Program-made: the position numbers and the translations under genes
Notes under the pieces: model-generated
Databases searched by the model: none
Told to the model about the DNA's origin: nothing
Seen by the model: the letters and a program-made list of their open reading frames with translations, nothing else
From: Nocardioides caldifontis
GTDB taxonomy: Bacteria > Actinomycetota > Actinomycetes > Propionibacteriales > Nocardioidaceae
Direction: 5' to 3'
DNA length: 64,000 nt
Assembly: GCF_008087345.1 (NCBI RefSeq)
Contig: NZ_VHIB01000017.1
Location: 1 to 64,000 of the forward strand
Shown here: positions 1,562 through 20,002 of the stretch, piece by piece
How positions within the stretch are numbered: the stretch's first letter is position 1
Layout: every line of letters starts with the position of its first letter

Positions 1562-3016
1562 GTGAGAGACGAGGAGTTCATCGCCCGCGTGCGCCGGCAC
1601 AAGCCAAGCGCTCTACTGCCCTTGATCGCGCGCTTCGCCTCGACGCGAATGCAACCGGACGACTGGATGAAGGAAGGGCAACGCGGCCTCGGCTCGCCCT
1701 GGGCCCTCGCAGAGATTGCTCGGGTTTGCCTGGCCTACGGCAATCAGCACCGGAAGGACGCGACGTTCGCTGACCTGGTCGCGTGCAACGACGCCTACAA
1801 CGAACTTGACGACCCGGAGATGGTTGAGGGGTTCAACGGTCTCGTGGCTGGGTTCTTCCTGCGGATCTCCGAGCAACTCGAGTATCAACTTCCGCTCCGC
1901 CACGAGATGACGCGCGCTATCGCACTCTTCAACTACACGGAGCCAAAGCGGCCCCTGCGGGTGATCCGCAACGGGTGGGACACCGAGCTCCTCGGAGCCG
2001 ACCTAGTCACCTTCATCGCCGCCGGGGAGATGCTGCATATCGCGGCGAAGCCAAACCAGGGCCGGTTCAATCCCAAGTGGCTCGACCAGCCGAACTTCAG
2101 TTTTCTCCGCGACGTCACCGACCCCGATCTCTTGCGGGCCGCTTGGACCCGTAGCTACGTCATCGACGCTTCCGAGTTCGCCGCTCAGAACGGTCGGCCA
2201 CGCCCATCAGTGTGGCGCCGTTACGGACACAACCCGCTGCTGAGCCGGCCCGCAGTGAGCGGACTTCACGAGGACTGGCTCATCCCCGTTCCCGCCCTCG
2301 TCGTGCGCCGTCTGAGCCCACTCGGCCTCTACTACGCCGGCATCAAACGATGGGACAAGGCCTTCGCGGATGATCTCGGCGACCTATTCGAGCCATACAT
2401 CGGCTCACACCTGCGCCTCCTCGGACCCGATGTGGTCGAGCCCGGGTTTCGCTACGGTCGCGACAACCACGAGACAGTGGACTTCATCGCCACCCTGCCC
2501 GAGGTGGTCGTCCTGGTCGAGGTGAAATCGGTTCGACCCACGGCTCCCGTCCGGGCAGGCAACGAGCATGCGCAAGCAGAGCTAAAGCGGATGCTCAACA
2601 AGGGCGTCGAGCAACTCGAGCGAGCCGACCGGCTGATCGACGAGCACCACCCCGCCTTCGCCCACATTCCTCGAGACCGCCCTCGCGTCGGGCTGCTGGT
2701 GACCCTCGAGGACTTCCACGTCCTCAACAGCGCGTTCCACCGACCGCTGCTCGACCGCGAGCGCCCAGATTTTCCGATCGGGGTGACCTCAGCTGGTGAG
2801 GTCGAGCATTGGGTGACAGTGAAAGATTTGGCGCCTGGTCAAGTCATCCTCGATGCCCGCGCCGAGCAAGAGGAATACCCCTGGCCGATGGGCGCCGGCG
2901 TCGCGCTGAAGCAGCAACTGTACGGGCGCAAGCATCGACGGAACCCGATCATCGACCACGCGTGGTCAGTCGGTCCGTGGCAGCAGCTCGCGGCATTGCG
3001 ATCGAGGGACGGCTAG
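1562..3016 (+). CDS. PD-(D/E)XK nuclease-fold protein, probable defence or mobile-element cargo
   Basis: 484 residues, start GTG. The C-terminal half carries what looks like a PD-(D/E)XK core: Glu277 in LFEPYIG, Asp307 in TVDFIATL, then Glu320-x-Lys322 in VLVEVKS, followed by a helix with Gln (GVEQLERA). This is the metal-binding signature of restriction-type DNA nucleases. Residues 1-250 form an alpha-rich region I do not recognise. There is no methylase or helicase beside it. The start is supported by the collapsed second copy at 4165, which aligns from the same codon and shares upstream bases. Lower GC and different codon choice than the core genes to the right fit a transferred gene. Nuclease activity is inferred from motif spacing only. 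Confidence 0.6.
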   Translation: MRDEEFIARVRRHKPSALLPLIARFASTRMQPDDWMKEGQRGLGSPWALAEIARVCLAYGNQHRKDATFADLVACNDAYNELDDPEMVEGFNGLVAGFFLRISEQLEYQLPLRHEMTRAIALFNYTEPKRPLRVIRNGWDTELLGADLVTFIAAGEMLHIAAKPNQGRFNPKWLDQPNFSFLRDVTDPDLLRAAWTRSYVIDASEFAAQNGRPRPSVWRRYGHNPLLSRPAVSGLHEDWLIPVPALVVRRLSPLGLYYAGIKRWDKAFADDLGDLFEPYIGSHLRLLGPDVVEPGFRYGRDNHETVDFIATLPEVVVLVEVKSVRPTAPVRAGNEHAQAELKRMLNKGVEQLERADRLIDEHHPAFAHIPRDRPRVGLLVTLEDFHVLNSAFHRPLLDRERPDFPIGVTSAGEVEHWVTVKDLAPGQVILDARAEQEEYPWPMGAGVALKQQLYGRKHRRNPIIDHAWSVGPWQQLAALRSRDG

Positions 3017-7692: not shown

Positions 7693-8196
7693 TCACAACA
7701 GCCCGAGGGACTCCTGGGCGTCGCGCAGCGCCTCCTCCGCGGCGGCGGCCACGTCGGGATCGGCGGTATCGATGCCGCGGTCGAACTGGTACGCCCACGT
7801 CACCGTGCCGCCCGCCGGTGGCCGGCGGGCGATGACGATCAGGCCGCGCTTCTTCTCGATCGGCACCCGCCGCTGGAGCAGCACGGAGGCGCTTACCCGC
7901 TCCCGGAGCAACGGCACGAGACCACCCGGTTCCGGCAGCACGAAGGACCACGCGGTGGTCGGCTCGCCGTACTCCTCGACACGTTCGACGGTCAGCGTCG
8001 AGGTGTCCTGGTCCCAGTCCCCACGGAGCACCCGCTCCCAGCGCAGGCACACCGGGTCGTCCCCGACCACGAAGAGGGCGTCCCGGGTGCCGACCAGCCA
8101 GGTCCCGTCCTCCGCCCGCGCCGACGCCAGCGGCCGACCACGCACGGCGGCCCGCACCTCGGCCGGCAGCTCCGCGCCACGTCCGAAGAGCCGCAT
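7693..8196 (-). CDS. Conserved hypothetical protein coupled to DnaG
   Basis: 167 residues, starting MRLFGRGAELP. Its ATG overlaps the dnaG stop codon (TGATG), so translation is coupled. The sequence is a soluble beta-rich protein with no signal peptide; it contains WLVGTRDALFVV and RGLIVIARRPP strands and ends in an acidic helix. Short proteins of this kind follow dnaG in several actinobacteria, but I do not know a function. The tRNA gene lies 130 bases downstream. Confidence 0.7.
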   Translation of the reverse strand: MRLFGRGAELPAEVRAAVRGRPLASARAEDGTWLVGTRDALFVVGDDPVCLRWERVLRGDWDQDTSTLTVERVEEYGEPTTAWSFVLPEPGGLVPLLRERVSASVLLQRRVPIEKKRGLIVIARRPPAGGTVTWAYQFDRGIDTADPDVAAAAEEALRDAQESLGLL

Positions 8197-11024
8197 CAGC
8201 CCGCGGCCCCGATCGCCTTCTCCCGCAGCGTCCGCCGGTGGCTCTCGAGGGCGACGAGCTCGCCGAACATCCGGTTGTACTCGGTCGCCTCGTCCACCGG
8301 GTTGGTCCGCTGCAGCTTCGACTTCAAGTCGTTGATCCGGCGCATCGCGGTCAGCTCGAGGAGCCGGTAGACGTTCGCCGCGGCGTAGGTCGGATCGGGG
8401 TCCCGGGCGCTCAGCACCGGTTCCACCGCCAATGCGTTGAGCACCTGCGCCGCGGAGGGGTCCTGGCCCGCACCGGACAGCGCGTCGCGCAGCTTGCCGA
8501 CCCAGACCTCCGGCTCCGGCGCGCCGGCGGGGCCTCCGTGCGCGGCGACCGCGTCCCACACCGCGCGGTAGCTGGGATGCGTGAAGTCGTTGCCGCCGAG
8601 GTCGGCCGAGATCGGCGCCACCAGCTGCGGGTGCTGGACGACGAGCTTCAGCGTCTCCCGTTCGAGGGCGAACCGGGGGTCGCGGAGGTCGGGCAGGTCG
8701 GTCCGCCTGGGCGCGGCGGCTGCGGGTGCGGCGGGCTCACGTCCCGACGGCGCCCGCCCGGACGCTCGGCGTACCTCCGCGCGCGCCTCCTCGATGTCCA
8801 CGCCGACCATGCCGGCGAGCTCGCGCGCGAACGCGTCGACCTTCGACCGGTCCCGGATGCTCGAGACCAGCTTCGCGGCCTCGCGGAGCGCGTCGATCCG
8901 CCCGTCGGCGCGATCGAGGTCGTAGCGCTGCACCACGTTGCCGAGCACGAACCGGTAGAGCGGGATCCGCCGGGCGACCAGCTCGCGGACGGCCGCGTCC
9001 CCGGACTTCAGCCGCAGGTCGCAGGGGTCGAGCCCGTCCGGCTCCACCGCGACGTACGTCTGGCCGACGAACTGCTGGTCGCCGCCGAACGCCCGCAGCG
9101 CGGCCTTCTGCCCCGCCTCGTCGCCGTCGAAGGTGAAGATCACCTCGCCACGGAACTCCTCGTGGTCGTGGAGGAGCCGCCGCAGCACCCGGCCGTGGTC
9201 CTCGCCGAACGCCGTCCCGCAGGTCGCGACCGCCGTGCCGACGCCGGAGAGGTGGCAGGCCATCACGTCGGTGTAGCCCTCGACGACCACCGCCTGCGAC
9301 GACCTGGCGATCTCCCGGCGCGCGAGGTCGATGCCGTAGAGGACCTGGCTCTTCTTGTAGATCGGCGTCTCGGGGGTGTTGAGGTACTTCGCCTCGATCC
9401 GGTCGTCGTCGAAGATCCGCCGGGCCCCGAACCCGATCGTCTCCCCCGAGGTCTCCCGGATCGGCCAGAGCAGCCGGCCGCGGAACCGGTCGTAGTGGCC
9501 TCGCTGGCCCTGGGCGACGAGCCCGGCGGTGACCAGCTCGGCGTCGCTGAACCGCTTCTGCCGCAAGTGCTTGTAGAGCGCCTCGCCGTCCCGTGGCGCG
9601 AAGCCGAGGCCGAAGGTGAGCGCTGCCTGCTGGTCGAACCCGCGCTCGGAGAGGAACTGGCGGGCGGCCACCGCGTCCGGGCCGCCGAGCTGGTCGGCGT
9701 AGAACTCCTGGGCGAGCTTGTGCGCCTCGACGAGCCGCTGGCGGCCGGGCCCCTTCGGCCGCGGCGTGTGGTCGTCCTCCTCCGTACGACGCAGCTGCAC
9801 GCCGGTGCGGTCCGCGAGGTACTCCACCGCCTGGGCGAACGCCAGCCCGTCGTGCTTCATCAGGAACGAGATGACGTCGCCCCCCTCGCCGCAGCCGAAA
9901 CAGTTACCCGTGAGGATGTTGTCCTCGAGGACGAAGGCGTGCCCCTCCTCGACCTCCGCACAGAAGACCTCTTCCTCGCGTTCGGTCTCCTCTACCGACT
10001 GCACCACCCATCCCCGTCGCGCAAACTTCTTCTGAGCAGCGACGAAGCGCTCGCGGTGCTCGGGGATGAGGAAGAAGTCCGGTGGGAGGTCGTCGTTGAC
10101 GAAGTGGATCCTGTGGAGGTCGCTCGGCTCGCGCCCCTCGAACCCGACCCGCGACTGCGTTGTGACCCCGTAAGTGGCGATGCCCAGGCGTGTGCACAGG
10201 AGTCGCACGAACTCGAGGTCCTCGCGCGACGCCGAGTTGAGGATGACCGTCCCGTCCTTGGCCACACAACCGTCCGCCGCGAAGTAGCCGGCGAGCCATC
10301 CGAGGAGGTAGGACGCCGACTCGTCGAGCGGCGGGCGCTCCTTGAAGAACCCCGGCAGGTGGTGGACCAGGAGGTTGGGCCCGGATGCCGACGTGACGCT
10401 GTTGGGGAAGTACTTGAGGATCGCCTCGTCCTTCGGAGGGCAGATCAACGCCATCGAGCCGCGGTGCCGAGTCCTGGTGCCGTCTCCGAAGGTGAACCCG
10501 TGGGCGACGCCGAAGGGCGATGCGACGGTCTGCGAGATGCGGGAGCCAGGGAAGACGTAGCAGAGCCGGTCGCCCGCCTTCAGCCCCGTGGTCACGACCT
10601 CACGCCGCGATGACTGGTCTTTGCCCGCCCGGACGAACCAACGGTGGCCGTCGGTCGCGTAGATCTCCTTGACCTGTCGGTTCCGGGTCAGGGTGAGCTT
10701 CCACAATCGCTGGACGCCGTACGACTTGAAGGGCGCCCAGTGCCACCGTGCGTCCACACCGAGGATCCGGTGGACGCCTCCGGCAAGCTCGCGGATCGGC
10801 TTGGTGCCCTCCCAGGTCATCACCCGCGTCTCACCAGCCAGGCAGTGGAAGCCGCGACCGGGACGGACGTGGAAGGACGGACTCTTCTCGTCGTGGAAGG
10901 GGCAGAGCCCCTTGAACGCTCCCCCGCCGGCGGGCTTGAGGGTGACGTACTGCCGGACGATCTCGACGAGGTCGGCGCGCTCGCGCACCAGCGCGATGTC
11001 CTCCTCGCGGATCAGCCCAGCCAC
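8196..11024 (-). CDS. dnaG: DNA primase DnaG, precursor containing an intein
   Basis: 942 residues as encoded; removing the 314-residue intein leaves 628, normal for actinobacterial primase. The N-terminal zinc-binding domain is split: CPFH (Cys41, His44) precedes the intein and CFGCGEGG follows it. The core has the toprim motifs VVEGYTDVMACH and FTFDGDEAG, and the C-terminal DnaB-interacting helical domain follows. It synthesises RNA primers at the replication fork. It lies 67 bases downstream of dgt on the same strand and is coupled to the hypothetical gene after it. The precursor cannot form the zinc site until the intein is spliced out. Confidence 0.95.
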   Translation of the reverse strand: MAGLIREEDIALVRERADLVEIVRQYVTLKPAGGGAFKGLCPFHDEKSPSFHVRPGRGFHCLAGETRVMTWEGTKPIRELAGGVHRILGVDARWHWAPFKSYGVQRLWKLTLTRNRQVKEIYATDGHRWFVRAGKDQSSRREVVTTGLKAGDRLCYVFPGSRISQTVASPFGVAHGFTFGDGTRTRHRGSMALICPPKDEAILKYFPNSVTSASGPNLLVHHLPGFFKERPPLDESASYLLGWLAGYFAADGCVAKDGTVILNSASREDLEFVRLLCTRLGIATYGVTTQSRVGFEGREPSDLHRIHFVNDDLPPDFFLIPEHRERFVAAQKKFARRGWVVQSVEETEREEEVFCAEVEEGHAFVLEDNILTGNCFGCGEGGDVISFLMKHDGLAFAQAVEYLADRTGVQLRRTEEDDHTPRPKGPGRQRLVEAHKLAQEFYADQLGGPDAVAARQFLSERGFDQQAALTFGLGFAPRDGEALYKHLRQKRFSDAELVTAGLVAQGQRGHYDRFRGRLLWPIRETSGETIGFGARRIFDDDRIEAKYLNTPETPIYKKSQVLYGIDLARREIARSSQAVVVEGYTDVMACHLSGVGTAVATCGTAFGEDHGRVLRRLLHDHEEFRGEVIFTFDGDEAGQKAALRAFGGDQQFVGQTYVAVEPDGLDPCDLRLKSGDAAVRELVARRIPLYRFVLGNVVQRYDLDRADGRIDALREAAKLVSSIRDRSKVDAFARELAGMVGVDIEEARAEVRRASGRAPSGREPAAPAAAAPRRTDLPDLRDPRFALERETLKLVVQHPQLVAPISADLGGNDFTHPSYRAVWDAVAAHGGPAGAPEPEVWVGKLRDALSGAGQDPSAAQVLNALAVEPVLSARDPDPTYAAANVYRLLELTAMRRINDLKSKLQRTNPVDEATEYNRMFGELVALESHRRTLREKAIGAAG
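9903..10844 (-). mobile_element. Intein with LAGLIDADG homing endonuclease inside DnaG
   Basis: Residues 61-374 of the DnaG precursor. It begins CLAGETRV (Cys1 nucleophile), has the block B motif ATDGHRWF, and ends AFVLEDNILTGN before Cys+1 of the host. Two dodecapeptide-like endonuclease motifs are visible: GVAHGFTFGDG and LLGWLAGYFAADG. The penultimate residue is Gly, not the usual His. The insertion lies exactly between the second and third zinc ligands, and Cys+1 is itself the third ligand. As a full-size intein with an endonuclease domain it should be capable of homing into intein-free dnaG alleles. Confidence 0.93.
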
Positions 11025-17246: not shown

Positions 17247-17284
17247 TTGACAACGGTTCTCATTCCGGCTGAGAATCGTTCTCA
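17247..17284 (+). promoter_or_regulatory. Zinc-operon promoter with two tandem Zur operators
   Basis: Two 15-bp palindromes, TGACAACGGTTCTCA (17248-17262) and TGAGAATCGTTCTCA (17270-17284, perfect), match the actinobacterial Zur box and are spaced 22 bp centre to centre, about two helical turns. They overlap a consensus -35 TTGACA (17247-17252) and a likely -10 GAGAAT (17271-17276, 18-bp spacer). Zinc-loaded Zur bound here would block polymerase completely. The predicted transcript start is about 17283, almost at the znuA ATG. Confidence 0.85.
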
Positions 17285-17286
17285 TC

Positions 17287-18189
17287 ATGACGCGACGACT
17301 CCTGCTCCCCCTCGCCTTGCTCGCCCTCCCCCTCACCGCGTGCGGCGACGACGGCACGTCCGGGGACGGCGGCGTCTCGGTGGTGACCTCGATCTACCCC
17401 GTCCAGTTCGTCGTCGAGCGGGTCGCCGGCGAGCACGCGACGGTCACCAACCTCACCTCCCCCGGCCAGGAGGCGCACGACCTCGAGCTCGGCATCGAGC
17501 AGACCGCCGAGCTCACCGACGCCGACCTTGTGGTGCACGGCAGCGGGTTCCAGCCGGCCGTCGACGAGGCGGCCGAGCAGAACGCCGAGGGCACGGTGGT
17601 CGACGCGATGGAGCTGCTCGAGACCCAGGGCATCGCCCTCCCCGACGGGGCGCCCACCGAGGTCGCCCCCGACGACCCGCACTTCTGGCTCGACCCCAAC
17701 GCGATGGCGCTGCTCGCCCGGGCGGTCCAGGACGAGCTGAGCAGGCTCGACCCCGACCACGCCACGGACTACGGGACGAACGCGGACGCGCTCGTCGACG
17801 ACCTCGCCGCGCTCGACGAGGAGACCTCCGCCGCCCTGGCCGACTGCGAGCGACGCACGGTCGTGGTGAGCCACGACGCGTTCGGCTACCTCGGCCGCCG
17901 CTACGACCTCGAGCTGGCGCCGATCGCCGGGCTCTCCCCCGACGCCGAGCCCTCCCCGGCGCACCTCGCCGAGCTCCAGGAGCTGATCGAGGAGGAAGGG
18001 ATCACCACCGTCTTCTCCGAGACGCTCGCCAGCCCGAAGATGGCCGAGACGCTCGCCGACGACCTCGGCCTCGCCACCGCGGTGCTCGACCCCGTCGAGG
18101 GGCTGACCGAGGACACCGAGGACGAGGACTACCTGTCGCTGATGCGTCGCAACGTCGAGGCGCTGCAGGAGGCGAACGGATGCAGGTGA
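17287..18189 (+). CDS. znuA: Zinc ABC transporter substrate-binding lipoprotein
   Basis: 300 residues. The signal peptide ends with lipobox LTAC, so the protein is membrane-anchored outside the cell. It belongs to the cluster A-I metal-binding proteins: STIYPVQF-like opening, GQEAHDLEL (first metal His), DPHFWLDPN (second His), VVSHDAFGYL (third His) and a C-terminal Asp/Glu region. It captures Zn2+ and hands it to ZnuB. The ATG lies only three bases after the second Zur box and has no ribosome site, so the message is probably leaderless. The next gene starts inside its 3' end. Confidence 0.93.
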   Translation: MTRRLLLPLALLALPLTACGDDGTSGDGGVSVVTSIYPVQFVVERVAGEHATVTNLTSPGQEAHDLELGIEQTAELTDADLVVHGSGFQPAVDEAAEQNAEGTVVDAMELLETQGIALPDGAPTEVAPDDPHFWLDPNAMALLARAVQDELSRLDPDHATDYGTNADALVDDLAALDEETSAALADCERRTVVVSHDAFGYLGRRYDLELAPIAGLSPDAEPSPAHLAELQELIEEEGITTVFSETLASPKMAETLADDLGLATAVLDPVEGLTEDTEDEDYLSLMRRNVEALQEANGCR

Positions 18190-19010
18190 ACCCGGTGATG
18201 GCCACGGAGGTGGACCCGGTGGTCCTCCGCGTCACCGACGGCTGCGTCGAGCTCGGCGGCCGGCCGGTGCTCCGTGGCGTCGACCTCACCGTGACGGCCG
18301 GCGAGGTGGTCGCCGTCCTCGGCGCGAACGGCTCCGGCAAGTCGACCCTGGTGCGCACCGTCCTGGGGCTGGCGCCGCTGCGTCGGGGCAGCGTCGAGCT
18401 CTTCGGCGCTCCCGTCGACCGGTTCCGCGACTGGCGCCGGGTCGGGTTCGTCCCGCAGCGGGTGACCGCGACCGCCGGCGTGCCTGCGTCGGTGTGGGAG
18501 GTGGTCGCGTCGGGGCGGCTGGCGCACCGCCCGCTCGTCGGCCCGATGCGGCGCCGGGACCGCGAGGCCACCCGCGACGCCCTGGAGGCGGTGGGGCTGG
18601 CCGACCGTGCCCGCGACGGCGTCGCGACCCTCTCCGGCGGCCAGCAGCAGCGGGTGCTCATCGCCCGCGCGCTCGCCGGCCGTCCGGAGCTGCTGGTCCT
18701 CGACGAGCCGACCGCCGGCGTCGACCTGGCCCAGCAGGACGCCTTCGCCGGCATCCTCGGGCGGCTGGTCGAGCGGGGCACCACCATCGTGCTCGTCGCC
18801 CACGAGATGGGGCCGATGGAGCCGCTGGTCGGCCGGACGGTCGTGATGCGCGACGGCCGCATCGCCTACGACGGCGCACCGCTGGAGTCCTTCGAGGACG
18901 TCCCCCACGCGCACGCCCACCACCCGCCGAGGCCGGCGGTCGACTACTCCCCCGCGCTCGCCGTGCCGCTCGACCGCGCCACCTCTCCCGACGAGGAGCA
19001 CCCGTCGTGA
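18180..19010 (+). CDS. znuC: Zinc ABC transporter ATPase
   Basis: 276 residues. It has Walker A GANGSGKST, a Q-loop, signature LSGGQQQRV, Walker B LLVLDEPTAGVD and switch His in LVAHEM. It energises zinc import by the ZnuB channel. The start ATG at 18180, ten bases inside znuA, has a strong AGGAGG. The last 40 residues are His-rich (HAHAHHPPRP), unusual for an ATPase and probably a zinc-binding tail. Confidence 0.93.
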   Translation: MQVNPVMATEVDPVVLRVTDGCVELGGRPVLRGVDLTVTAGEVVAVLGANGSGKSTLVRTVLGLAPLRRGSVELFGAPVDRFRDWRRVGFVPQRVTATAGVPASVWEVVASGRLAHRPLVGPMRRRDREATRDALEAVGLADRARDGVATLSGGQQQRVLIARALAGRPELLVLDEPTAGVDLAQQDAFAGILGRLVERGTTIVLVAHEMGPMEPLVGRTVVMRDGRIAYDGAPLESFEDVPHAHAHHPPRPAVDYSPALAVPLDRATSPDEEHPS

Positions 19011-20002
19011 GCTACCTCGCCTACGACTTCGTCCAGCGCGCGCTCATCGCGGCGTTCGTCACCGGGCTCGCCGCCCCCGCGGTGGGCACCTACCTGGTGC
19101 AGCGGCGCCAGGCCCTGATGGGCGACGGCATCGGCCACGTGGCGGTGACCGGCGTCGCCCTCGGCCTCGTGACGAACACCTCACCCACCGTGACCGCGGT
19201 CGTCGTGGCCATCGCAGGTGCCCTGGTGATCGAGGTGGTCCGCCAACGTGGCGGCGCGAGCGGCGACATCGCCCTCGCGCTGCTGTTCTACGGCGGGATC
19301 GCGGGAGGGGTGTTCCTCACCGGGCTCGCCGACCAGAGCGCGACGACGCTCAACACCTACCTGTTCGGCTCGATCACCACCGTCGACATCGGCGACCTGT
19401 GGGTGACCGGGGGGCTCGCGGTCGTCGTGGTCGCCGTCGCCGTCGGGCTGGCGCCGCGGCTCTTCGCGGTGGCGCAGGACCCGGAGTTCGCCAAGGTCGC
19501 CGGGATCCGGGTGACCGCCTACAACGTGCTCGTCTCCGTGCTGGCCGCCGTCACCGTGACCGTGGCGATGCGCACCGTCGGGCTGCTGCTGGTCAGCGCG
19601 CTGATGGTGGTGCCGGTCGCGACCGCGCAGCAGCTCACCCGCGCGTTCCGCGACACGTTGCTGCTCGCGATGGCGCTGGGCACCGCCGCCTCGGTGGGCG
19701 GGCTGCTGGTCTCGGCCGAGATCGACGTCGCGCCCGGCGCCACGATCGTGCTGCTCGCCCTCGCCGGGTTCGCCGCGGCCTGGCCGGTGGGCGCGTGGCT
19801 GCGGAGGAGACGCCGGGTCACCGCGCCGTTCGCGGCACCGGTGCTGGCGCGCGAGGAGCCCCACACCGTCGTACCCGAGGAGCACGAGCACGCGCACGGC
19901 CCCGACTGCGGCCACCCCGCGATCGTGCACGGGGACCACGTCGACTACGTCCACGACGGGCACCGGCACGCACCGCACGGAGGTCACTATGACGAGCACT
20001 GA
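19007..20002 (+). CDS. znuB: Zinc ABC transporter permease with His-rich tail
   Basis: 331 residues with eight or nine membrane helices typical of the ABC-3 permease family (QRRQALMGDGIGHVAVTGVALG, MRTVGLLLVSALMVVPVATA). The start GTG overlaps the znuC stop as GTGA. After the last helix come about 55 residues packed with His, Asp and Glu (HEHAHGPDCGH, HDGHRHAPHGGHYDEH), which should lie in the cytosol and bind zinc, perhaps as a buffer or sensor. The gene overlaps zur by 14 bases. Confidence 0.93.
   Translation: MSYLAYDFVQRALIAAFVTGLAAPAVGTYLVQRRQALMGDGIGHVAVTGVALGLVTNTSPTVTAVVVAIAGALVIEVVRQRGGASGDIALALLFYGGIAGGVFLTGLADQSATTLNTYLFGSITTVDIGDLWVTGGLAVVVVAVAVGLAPRLFAVAQDPEFAKVAGIRVTAYNVLVSVLAAVTVTVAMRTVGLLLVSALMVVPVATAQQLTRAFRDTLLLAMALGTAASVGGLLVSAEIDVAPGATIVLLALAGFAAAWPVGAWLRRRRRVTAPFAAPVLAREEPHTVVPEEHEHAHGPDCGHPAIVHGDHVDYVHDGHRHAPHGGHYDEH

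Follow-up and report, generated by a model that had tools for sequence, protein, structure and literature searches.

The primase gene of Nocardioides caldifontis raises the question of what an intein is doing in the middle of a metal site. In a 64,000-nucleotide stretch of this genome (assembly GCF_008087345.1, contig NZ_VHIB01000017.1, positions 1 to 64,000; hereafter the window), the dnaG product carries 314 extra residues between the second and third ligands of its zinc ribbon. An original prediction, made from the DNA alone, had placed an intein at 9903-10844, and both the coordinates and the insertion point agree with the open reading frame and the domain evidence. The presence of an intein in the DnaG zinc motif is real and is confirmed here; the element adds a member to a known kind of intein, from a mobile family found in many relatives. 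We conclude that it is very probably a phage-linked LAGLIDADG homing intein that targets the zinc-ribbon codons of dnaG and splices in cis, most likely by the class 1 route, with the zinc ribbon completed afterwards. In what follows, C1, T64, H67, W69, D121, D191, C295, H302, T312, G313 and N314 are numbered within the intein, and C375, Thr372, Asn374, H60, H127 and H362 within DnaG.

8196 to 11024, minus strand: dnaG, DNA primase precursor with intein, 942 amino acids, GTG start, a single open reading frame
10845 to 11024, minus strand: N-extein, residues 1-60, with zinc ligands C41 (10902-10904) and H44 (10893-10895)
9903 to 10844, minus strand: intein, 314 amino acids, DnaG residues 61-374 (C61 to N374)
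10842 to 10844, minus strand: Cys1, the class 1 nucleophile, Cys in 73/73 DnaG inteins
10638 to 10655, minus strand: block B with T64, H67 (B:10) and W69 (B:12), each in 73/73
10020 to 10544, minus strand: homing endonuclease region, intein residues ~101-275, two LAGLIDADG-type motifs, PF14528
10482 to 10484 and 10272 to 10274, minus strand: acidic LAGLIDADG residues D121 and D191, each kept in 62/64 full-length copies
9960 to 9962, minus strand: C295 of block F (F:4), the class 3 nucleophile, in 73/73 DnaG inteins and 67/67 parsed relatives elsewhere
9903 to 9911, minus strand: block G with T312 (G:5), penultimate G313 and N314, each in 73/73
8196 to 9902, minus strand: C-extein, residues 375-942, opening with ligands C375 (+1; 9900-9902) and C378 (9891-9893)

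Pfam matched the CHC2 zinc ribbon (PF01807), DNAG_N, Toprim and DnaB-binding domains on the precursor, as well as LAGLIDADG_3 (PF14528) at DnaG residues 239-289 (E = 4.9e-9, over cutoff). The NCBIfam dnaG model matched in two pieces that flank residues 61-374, and intein_Cterm matched at 352-375, over cutoff (E = 0.009). Searching the genome returned only one dnaG, split in two around the intein, and a single copy of the intein. CPFH, with C41 and H44, lies upstream of the insert and CFGC, with C375 and C378, downstream, and together they give the C-x2-H ... C-x2-C ligand pattern; C375 opens CFGC, so the +1 cysteine is the third zinc ligand, as had been claimed. The N-extein aligned to the zinc domain of DNA primase 1d0q (E = 7.9e-12), whose four matching C-H-C-C residues bind zinc. 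Because ligands two and three stand 330 residues apart in the precursor, this separation supports the earlier suggestion that zinc-loaded primase would exist only after splicing. With the intein removed, the spacing between these ligands is x17 in 71 rows and x16 in two, the DnaG of the window and that of its nearest relative (L012). At the splice junction (window 10845-10905) these two are one residue short compared with the 71 other carriers and the 14 intein-free relatives checked.

A family scan, which took one genome per species, used an alignment of seven relatives and two short peptide patterns and is not a census, returned 73 genome contigs. In 72 of these the intein separates CPFH from CFGC in DnaG, and in the remaining one (L071) the host is an anaerobic ribonucleotide reductase. 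By record title, the 72 DnaG loci comprise 56 of actinomycete type, including one labelled Bacillus, and 16 that are proteobacterial, mostly of Sphingomonadales type. The record titled Bacillus sp. AZ43 (L036, unverified) is probably mislabelled; its DnaG and intein group with Geodermatophilaceae. Among intein-free relatives, CPFH-x17-CFGC was unbroken in all 14 checked, which were the first ones listed, from two genera, and not a random draw. The element thus has what is expected of an intein: it interrupts a conserved host protein in frame, and close relatives lack it at that point.

Occupancy of the site is patchy in whole genomes as well. In the order of the window, 9/196 genomes carry the intein, all nine at the DnaG site as far as read (for G191, the C-terminal half alone), and in its class 10/394, nine in DnaG and one in a frameshifted RtcB-type gene. 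In the family of Geodermatophilus obscurus the intein is present in 31/112 genomes; reading placed it in DnaG in 28, full length in 21 and mini in 7. Two genomes of that family (G592 and G662) gave two-piece matches, as mini-inteins give, and were not read at DnaG; the intein of G648 is in RtcB, and G662 also has an RtcB copy. The order, class and family sets overlap each other and the named loci. A second DNAG_N match occurs in five genomes (G014, G052, G055, G146 and G153), for 4/5 in an open frame of ~2000 amino acids, and does not occur in the genome of the window.

Beyond DnaG, members of the intein family occupy cysteines in ribonucleotide reductases and RtcB. From the viral collection came 70 loci, and 67 of the 71 non-DnaG rows could be parsed (L071, L124, L126 and L144 could not). 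On viral contigs, five distinct proteins judged primase-like by eye and with Pfam (L085, L086, L089, L107 and L142) carry the intein, in each at the first cysteine of a C-x2-C. Toprim or DNAG_N passes its cutoff in L086, L089 and L107 and matches weakly in L085 and L142; L108 all but duplicates L107. The non-DnaG rows provide 51 distinct +1 contexts, with Cys in 48 and Ser in 3, and 14 of them read C-x(2-4)-C. In the 67 parsed relatives, C295 is present in 67, W69 in 66, Cys1 in 59 and T312 in 56. Phage GenBank records matched in 16 cases at E < 1e-5, and in 13 of them the annotation is ribonucleotide reductase or the like; none of the 16 covers 80% of the query, and no mycobacteriophage is among them.

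Some of these relatives merit separate mention. Two loci have RtcB as host (L216, 1108-3237, minus strand, and L217, 631-2829), with the intein before CHHNY and PF01139 at E < 1e-100 in both, and another RtcB-type copy (L166, in G205) is broken by a frameshift in its endonuclease part. On three more viral contigs (L088, L093 and L122) the intein precedes C-x2-C or C-x3-C in host proteins that are related to one another; no host domain matched in L088 or L093, and for L122 a PAPS-reductase model matched weakly, barely over cutoff.

The splicing blocks combine traits of two intein classes. C1, T64, H67, W69, C295, T312, G313 and N314 are invariant in the 73 DnaG inteins, H302 differs once, and residue -1 is His in 70 and Tyr in 3. 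Two class 1 traits, Cys1 and the TxxH of block B, are present, and the penultimate His that is common in class 1, though not obligatory, is absent. The penultimate residue is instead Gly (G373 of DnaG, G313 of the intein), which had been correctly noted. As a special feature of this intein it is ruled out, since it is the family norm in 73/73 DnaG inteins; in the 67 relatives of other hosts it is Gly in 44 and His in 9. The triplet that defines class 3 is Trp(B:12)-Cys(F:4)-Thr(G:5), at H+2, in block F and at N-2 (PMC5222942, PMC7891396), and this W-C-T triplet is complete. The position 1 without a nucleophile that goes with class 3 is not found, as Cys1 is present in 73/73. By its sequence, then, the intein is of mixed type, with the class 1 Cys1 and TxxH along with a complete class 3 W-C-T. 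Because Cys1 is strictly kept, it is probably used, and class 1 initiation is the best bet.

Seven relatives on viral contigs, with ribonucleotide reductase-like hosts (L143, L146-L150 and L152), have no Cys1, probably Pro1, and retain W, C, TGN and Cys+1. They reduce to five distinct tree rows, which form one clade on a long branch. These relatives are class 3-like with Cys+1, the same combination that a 2016 paper called unique to a single intein (PMC5222942).

The endonuclease region has the two motifs with acidic residues that define a LAGLIDADG homing intein. Mini-inteins without this domain make up 9/73 of the DnaG inteins (145-209 amino acids) and keep all the named splicing residues. 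We modelled DnaG residues 1-440 with AlphaFold2, using a 56-row alignment that left out 21 of the 72 DnaG loci, L064 and L053 among them. The mean predicted local distance difference test (pLDDT) score was 87.2, with ten-residue blocks over 61-340 at 82-98 and lower values at the two zinc-ribbon halves (68 and 62 for the blocks within 41-60; 67 for 371-380). The low pLDDT of the halves, in a model of the precursor alone, fits a ribbon that would be unable to form before splicing. The top Foldseek matches were endonuclease-bearing VMA inteins (E = 6.9e-13, template modelling score ~0.5); matches for the endonuclease region include PI-SceI and I-DmoI. VMA inteins such as PI-SceI and TliVMA, the best fold matches, share the Hint and LAGLIDADG domains and differ in host protein, with 13-19% identity in the best rows. 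By sequence, the intein alone gave a single chance match among solved structures (E = 0.73).

Evidence for mobility came from trees, similarity and selection. The intein tree held 104/140 parsed rows, after 14 near-copies, L145 and 21 close DnaG rows were dropped; the extein tree held 52/73 DnaG rows, and the tree for the approximately unbiased (AU) test 30/73. In Jiangella and in two Geodermatophilaceae bins the inteins group with those of Nocardioidaceae, and the exteins do not; for groups picked after the tree had been seen, the AU test gave p = 0.029 and p = 2.6e-6. The viral primase L107 branches within the clade of proteobacterial inteins, with moderate support (84). For six proteobacterial loci, identity to the window was 47.9-53.3% for the intein vs 34.2-40.2% for the extein. 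The ratio of nonsynonymous to synonymous substitution rates (dN/dS), estimated by NG86 in 12 close pairs with some values near saturation, was 0.02-0.19 for the splicing part in 12/12 pairs and 0.02-0.18 for the endonuclease part in 11/12; dS of the splicing part exceeded that of the extein in 11/12. Taken together, the LAGLIDADG motifs, low dN/dS, tree conflict and mini-inteins fit the usual homing cycle. In addition, the patchy occupancy (9/196 in the order) and the tree conflict lend indirect support to cutting of the empty site.

On this basis of anatomy, conservation, empty sites, spread, selection and predicted fold, we infer splicing, its chemical route, homing and the binding of zinc after splicing, in the following order. 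The DnaG precursor would be made with its zinc ribbon cut in two. By analogy with other class 1 inteins, Cys1 would attack the His60-Cys1 bond, the N-extein would be transferred to Cys375 (+1), and Asn374 would cyclise, with the histidines of blocks B and F taking the place of the absent penultimate His. An acyl shift would then give the uninterrupted ribbon C41-H44-C375-C378, now able to bind zinc. Cys295, with Trp69 and Thr372 (T312), may assist and may be a second entry point. The endonuclease domain would spread the intein into empty dnaG alleles.

Several observations weigh against this account, which is built on sequence and a predicted fold. The Pfam Intein_splicing match is under cutoff (E = 8e-4, 19.6 vs 35.8 bits), and a mini-intein profile matched none of the solved inteins at E < 0.05. 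The presence of the class 3 signature makes the initiating cysteine ambiguous. In 6/10 actinomycete loci compared, the intein is less similar to its counterpart in the window than the extein is, as vertical descent would give. The acidic LAGLIDADG residues are changed in 2/64 full-length copies each, and in one close pair (L056/L059, dS 0.05) dN/dS of the endonuclease part is 0.65, so that not every copy need be active.

A zinc-uptake operon had been pointed out in the same window, and it is indeed present, outside the intein system.

17247 to 19771, plus strand: metal (zinc-type) ABC transporter genes; ATPase with AztA as best match, below cutoff; PF00950 permease at 19022-19771

PF00950 lies 8.6-16.1 kb from dnaG in 9/14 intein-free relatives and 9.3-15.6 kb from it in 6/8 carriers. 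In the other five intein-free relatives it is distant or on another contig; among the carriers, G153 has no PF00950 match at 1e-30 and G161 has one on another contig. The proximity of dnaG and the operon, being common to intein-free relatives, reflects an old gene order, and we reject it as evidence for a link with the intein. Elsewhere in the window, an open reading frame at 1562-3016 (plus strand) has a GapS1-family match far under cutoff (44 vs 320 bits).

A different view of the insertion point, raised with the original prediction, is that the intein is regulatory, with splicing sensing zinc or redox state through the Cys+1 ligand and thereby gating primase activity and replication. The geometry of Cys+1 and the zinc ligands is as this view claims, and the conserved thiols C1, C295 and C375, along with histidines H60, H127 and H362, would sit near the active site. 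In the Mycobacterium DnaB intein, also within a replication protein, splicing is reversibly inhibited by zinc and blocked by oxidation (PMC7360933, PMC6195587), and the persistence in dnaG of mini-inteins without an endonuclease is a pattern that some authors read as domestication. However, several unrelated inteins are reported to be inhibited by zinc, and so such inhibition needs no zinc-ligand site; relatives at ribonucleotide reductase and RtcB cysteines carry the same splicing residues; the operon is near dnaG independently of the intein; full-length copies resemble endonuclease-bearing homing elements; and mini-inteins are the expected end of the homing cycle, retained since imprecise loss is lethal. 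We therefore consider a regulatory role quite improbable; the original interpretation is supported in part, for the anatomy and for the order of splicing before zinc loading. A more specific proposal, a ligand-swap metal trap, starts from the place of Cys1 in the precursor, which is the sequence position of zinc ligand three (CPFH-x16-C); the Pfam and 1d0q alignments extend through it. The N-extein and Cys1, with Cys295 or Cys375 nearby, would bind zinc and lock the initiating thiol, and splicing would move the ligand role from Cys1 to Cys+1. Zinc on C41, H44 and Cys1 would stop step one of splicing, and high free zinc would keep primase as an inactive precursor. The same proposal includes a by-pass through Cys295; either cysteine could then start splicing, and the family would stand midway between class 1 and class 3 as a living intermediate. 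This is a long shot. Zinc is known to act on inteins by inhibiting splicing through a catalytic cysteine, not as something that splicing requires (PMC7360933); since such inhibition occurs in inteins without host zinc sites, a positive zinc effect alone would need a C41/H44 control.

The class 3 signature suggests yet another route, in which Cys295 (F:4) initiates and Cys1 is a relic. The W-C-T triplet stands complete at its published positions in every DnaG intein, and the seven viral-contig relatives described above retain W, C and TGN in the absence of Cys1. A relic, however, would not be kept in 73/73 DnaG inteins and 59/67 others; moreover, the Thr of TxxH, invariant here, is generally lost in class 3 inteins (PMC6195587), and the +1 residue is Cys, as opposed to the usual Ser or Thr (PMC5222942). 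Thus, we regard this route as rather unlikely and Cys1 as the probable initiator. It is barely credible that the insert is a broken, non-splicing element or an assembly artefact, as the weak Pfam splicing score might suggest: the same insert occurs at the same site, in open frames, in 72 named contigs and further genomes (in overlapping sets), the genome has no second dnaG copy, and the intein is under purifying selection.

Known systems share parts of this picture. Mycobacterium smegmatis DnaB intein 1, a class 3 intein, is likewise in a replication protein and has the W-C-T triplet, and zinc on its catalytic Cys118 inhibits splicing (PMC7360933). It differs in that it has no Cys1, has Ser+1, is a mini-intein and shows its zinc effect without a host zinc site. 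The class 1 intein of the mycobacteriophage Bethlehem RDF also has a penultimate Gly, and its Gly316His change lowered splicing; the class 1 TOPRIM inteins of A1 mycobacteriophages likewise have primase-type hosts, those of phage (PMC5050341). DnaG is listed as a bacterial intein host in a 2018 review table, in a passage that gives no site, organism or zinc ligand (PMC5874633). In the open-access literature searched, we found no description of a DnaG intein placed in the zinc motif, and no paper with both 'intein' and 'Nocardioides'. Tori and Perler (2011, J Bacteriol 193:2035) reportedly tested mixed inteins for class, probably including a Nocardioides sp. JS614 TOPRIM intein with Cys1 and W-C-T.

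If the element is ordinary, it is another homing intein at a conserved cysteine. Even so, the family offers a large natural set, with 72 named contigs from two phyla, phage-type relatives, and full-length and mini forms, in which the splicing thiols coincide with the metal site of a replication protein that is essential, and in which the signatures of class 1 and class 3 occur together. With this set, it would be possible to test whether a host metal site inhibits splicing natively and to address the origin of class 3 inteins.

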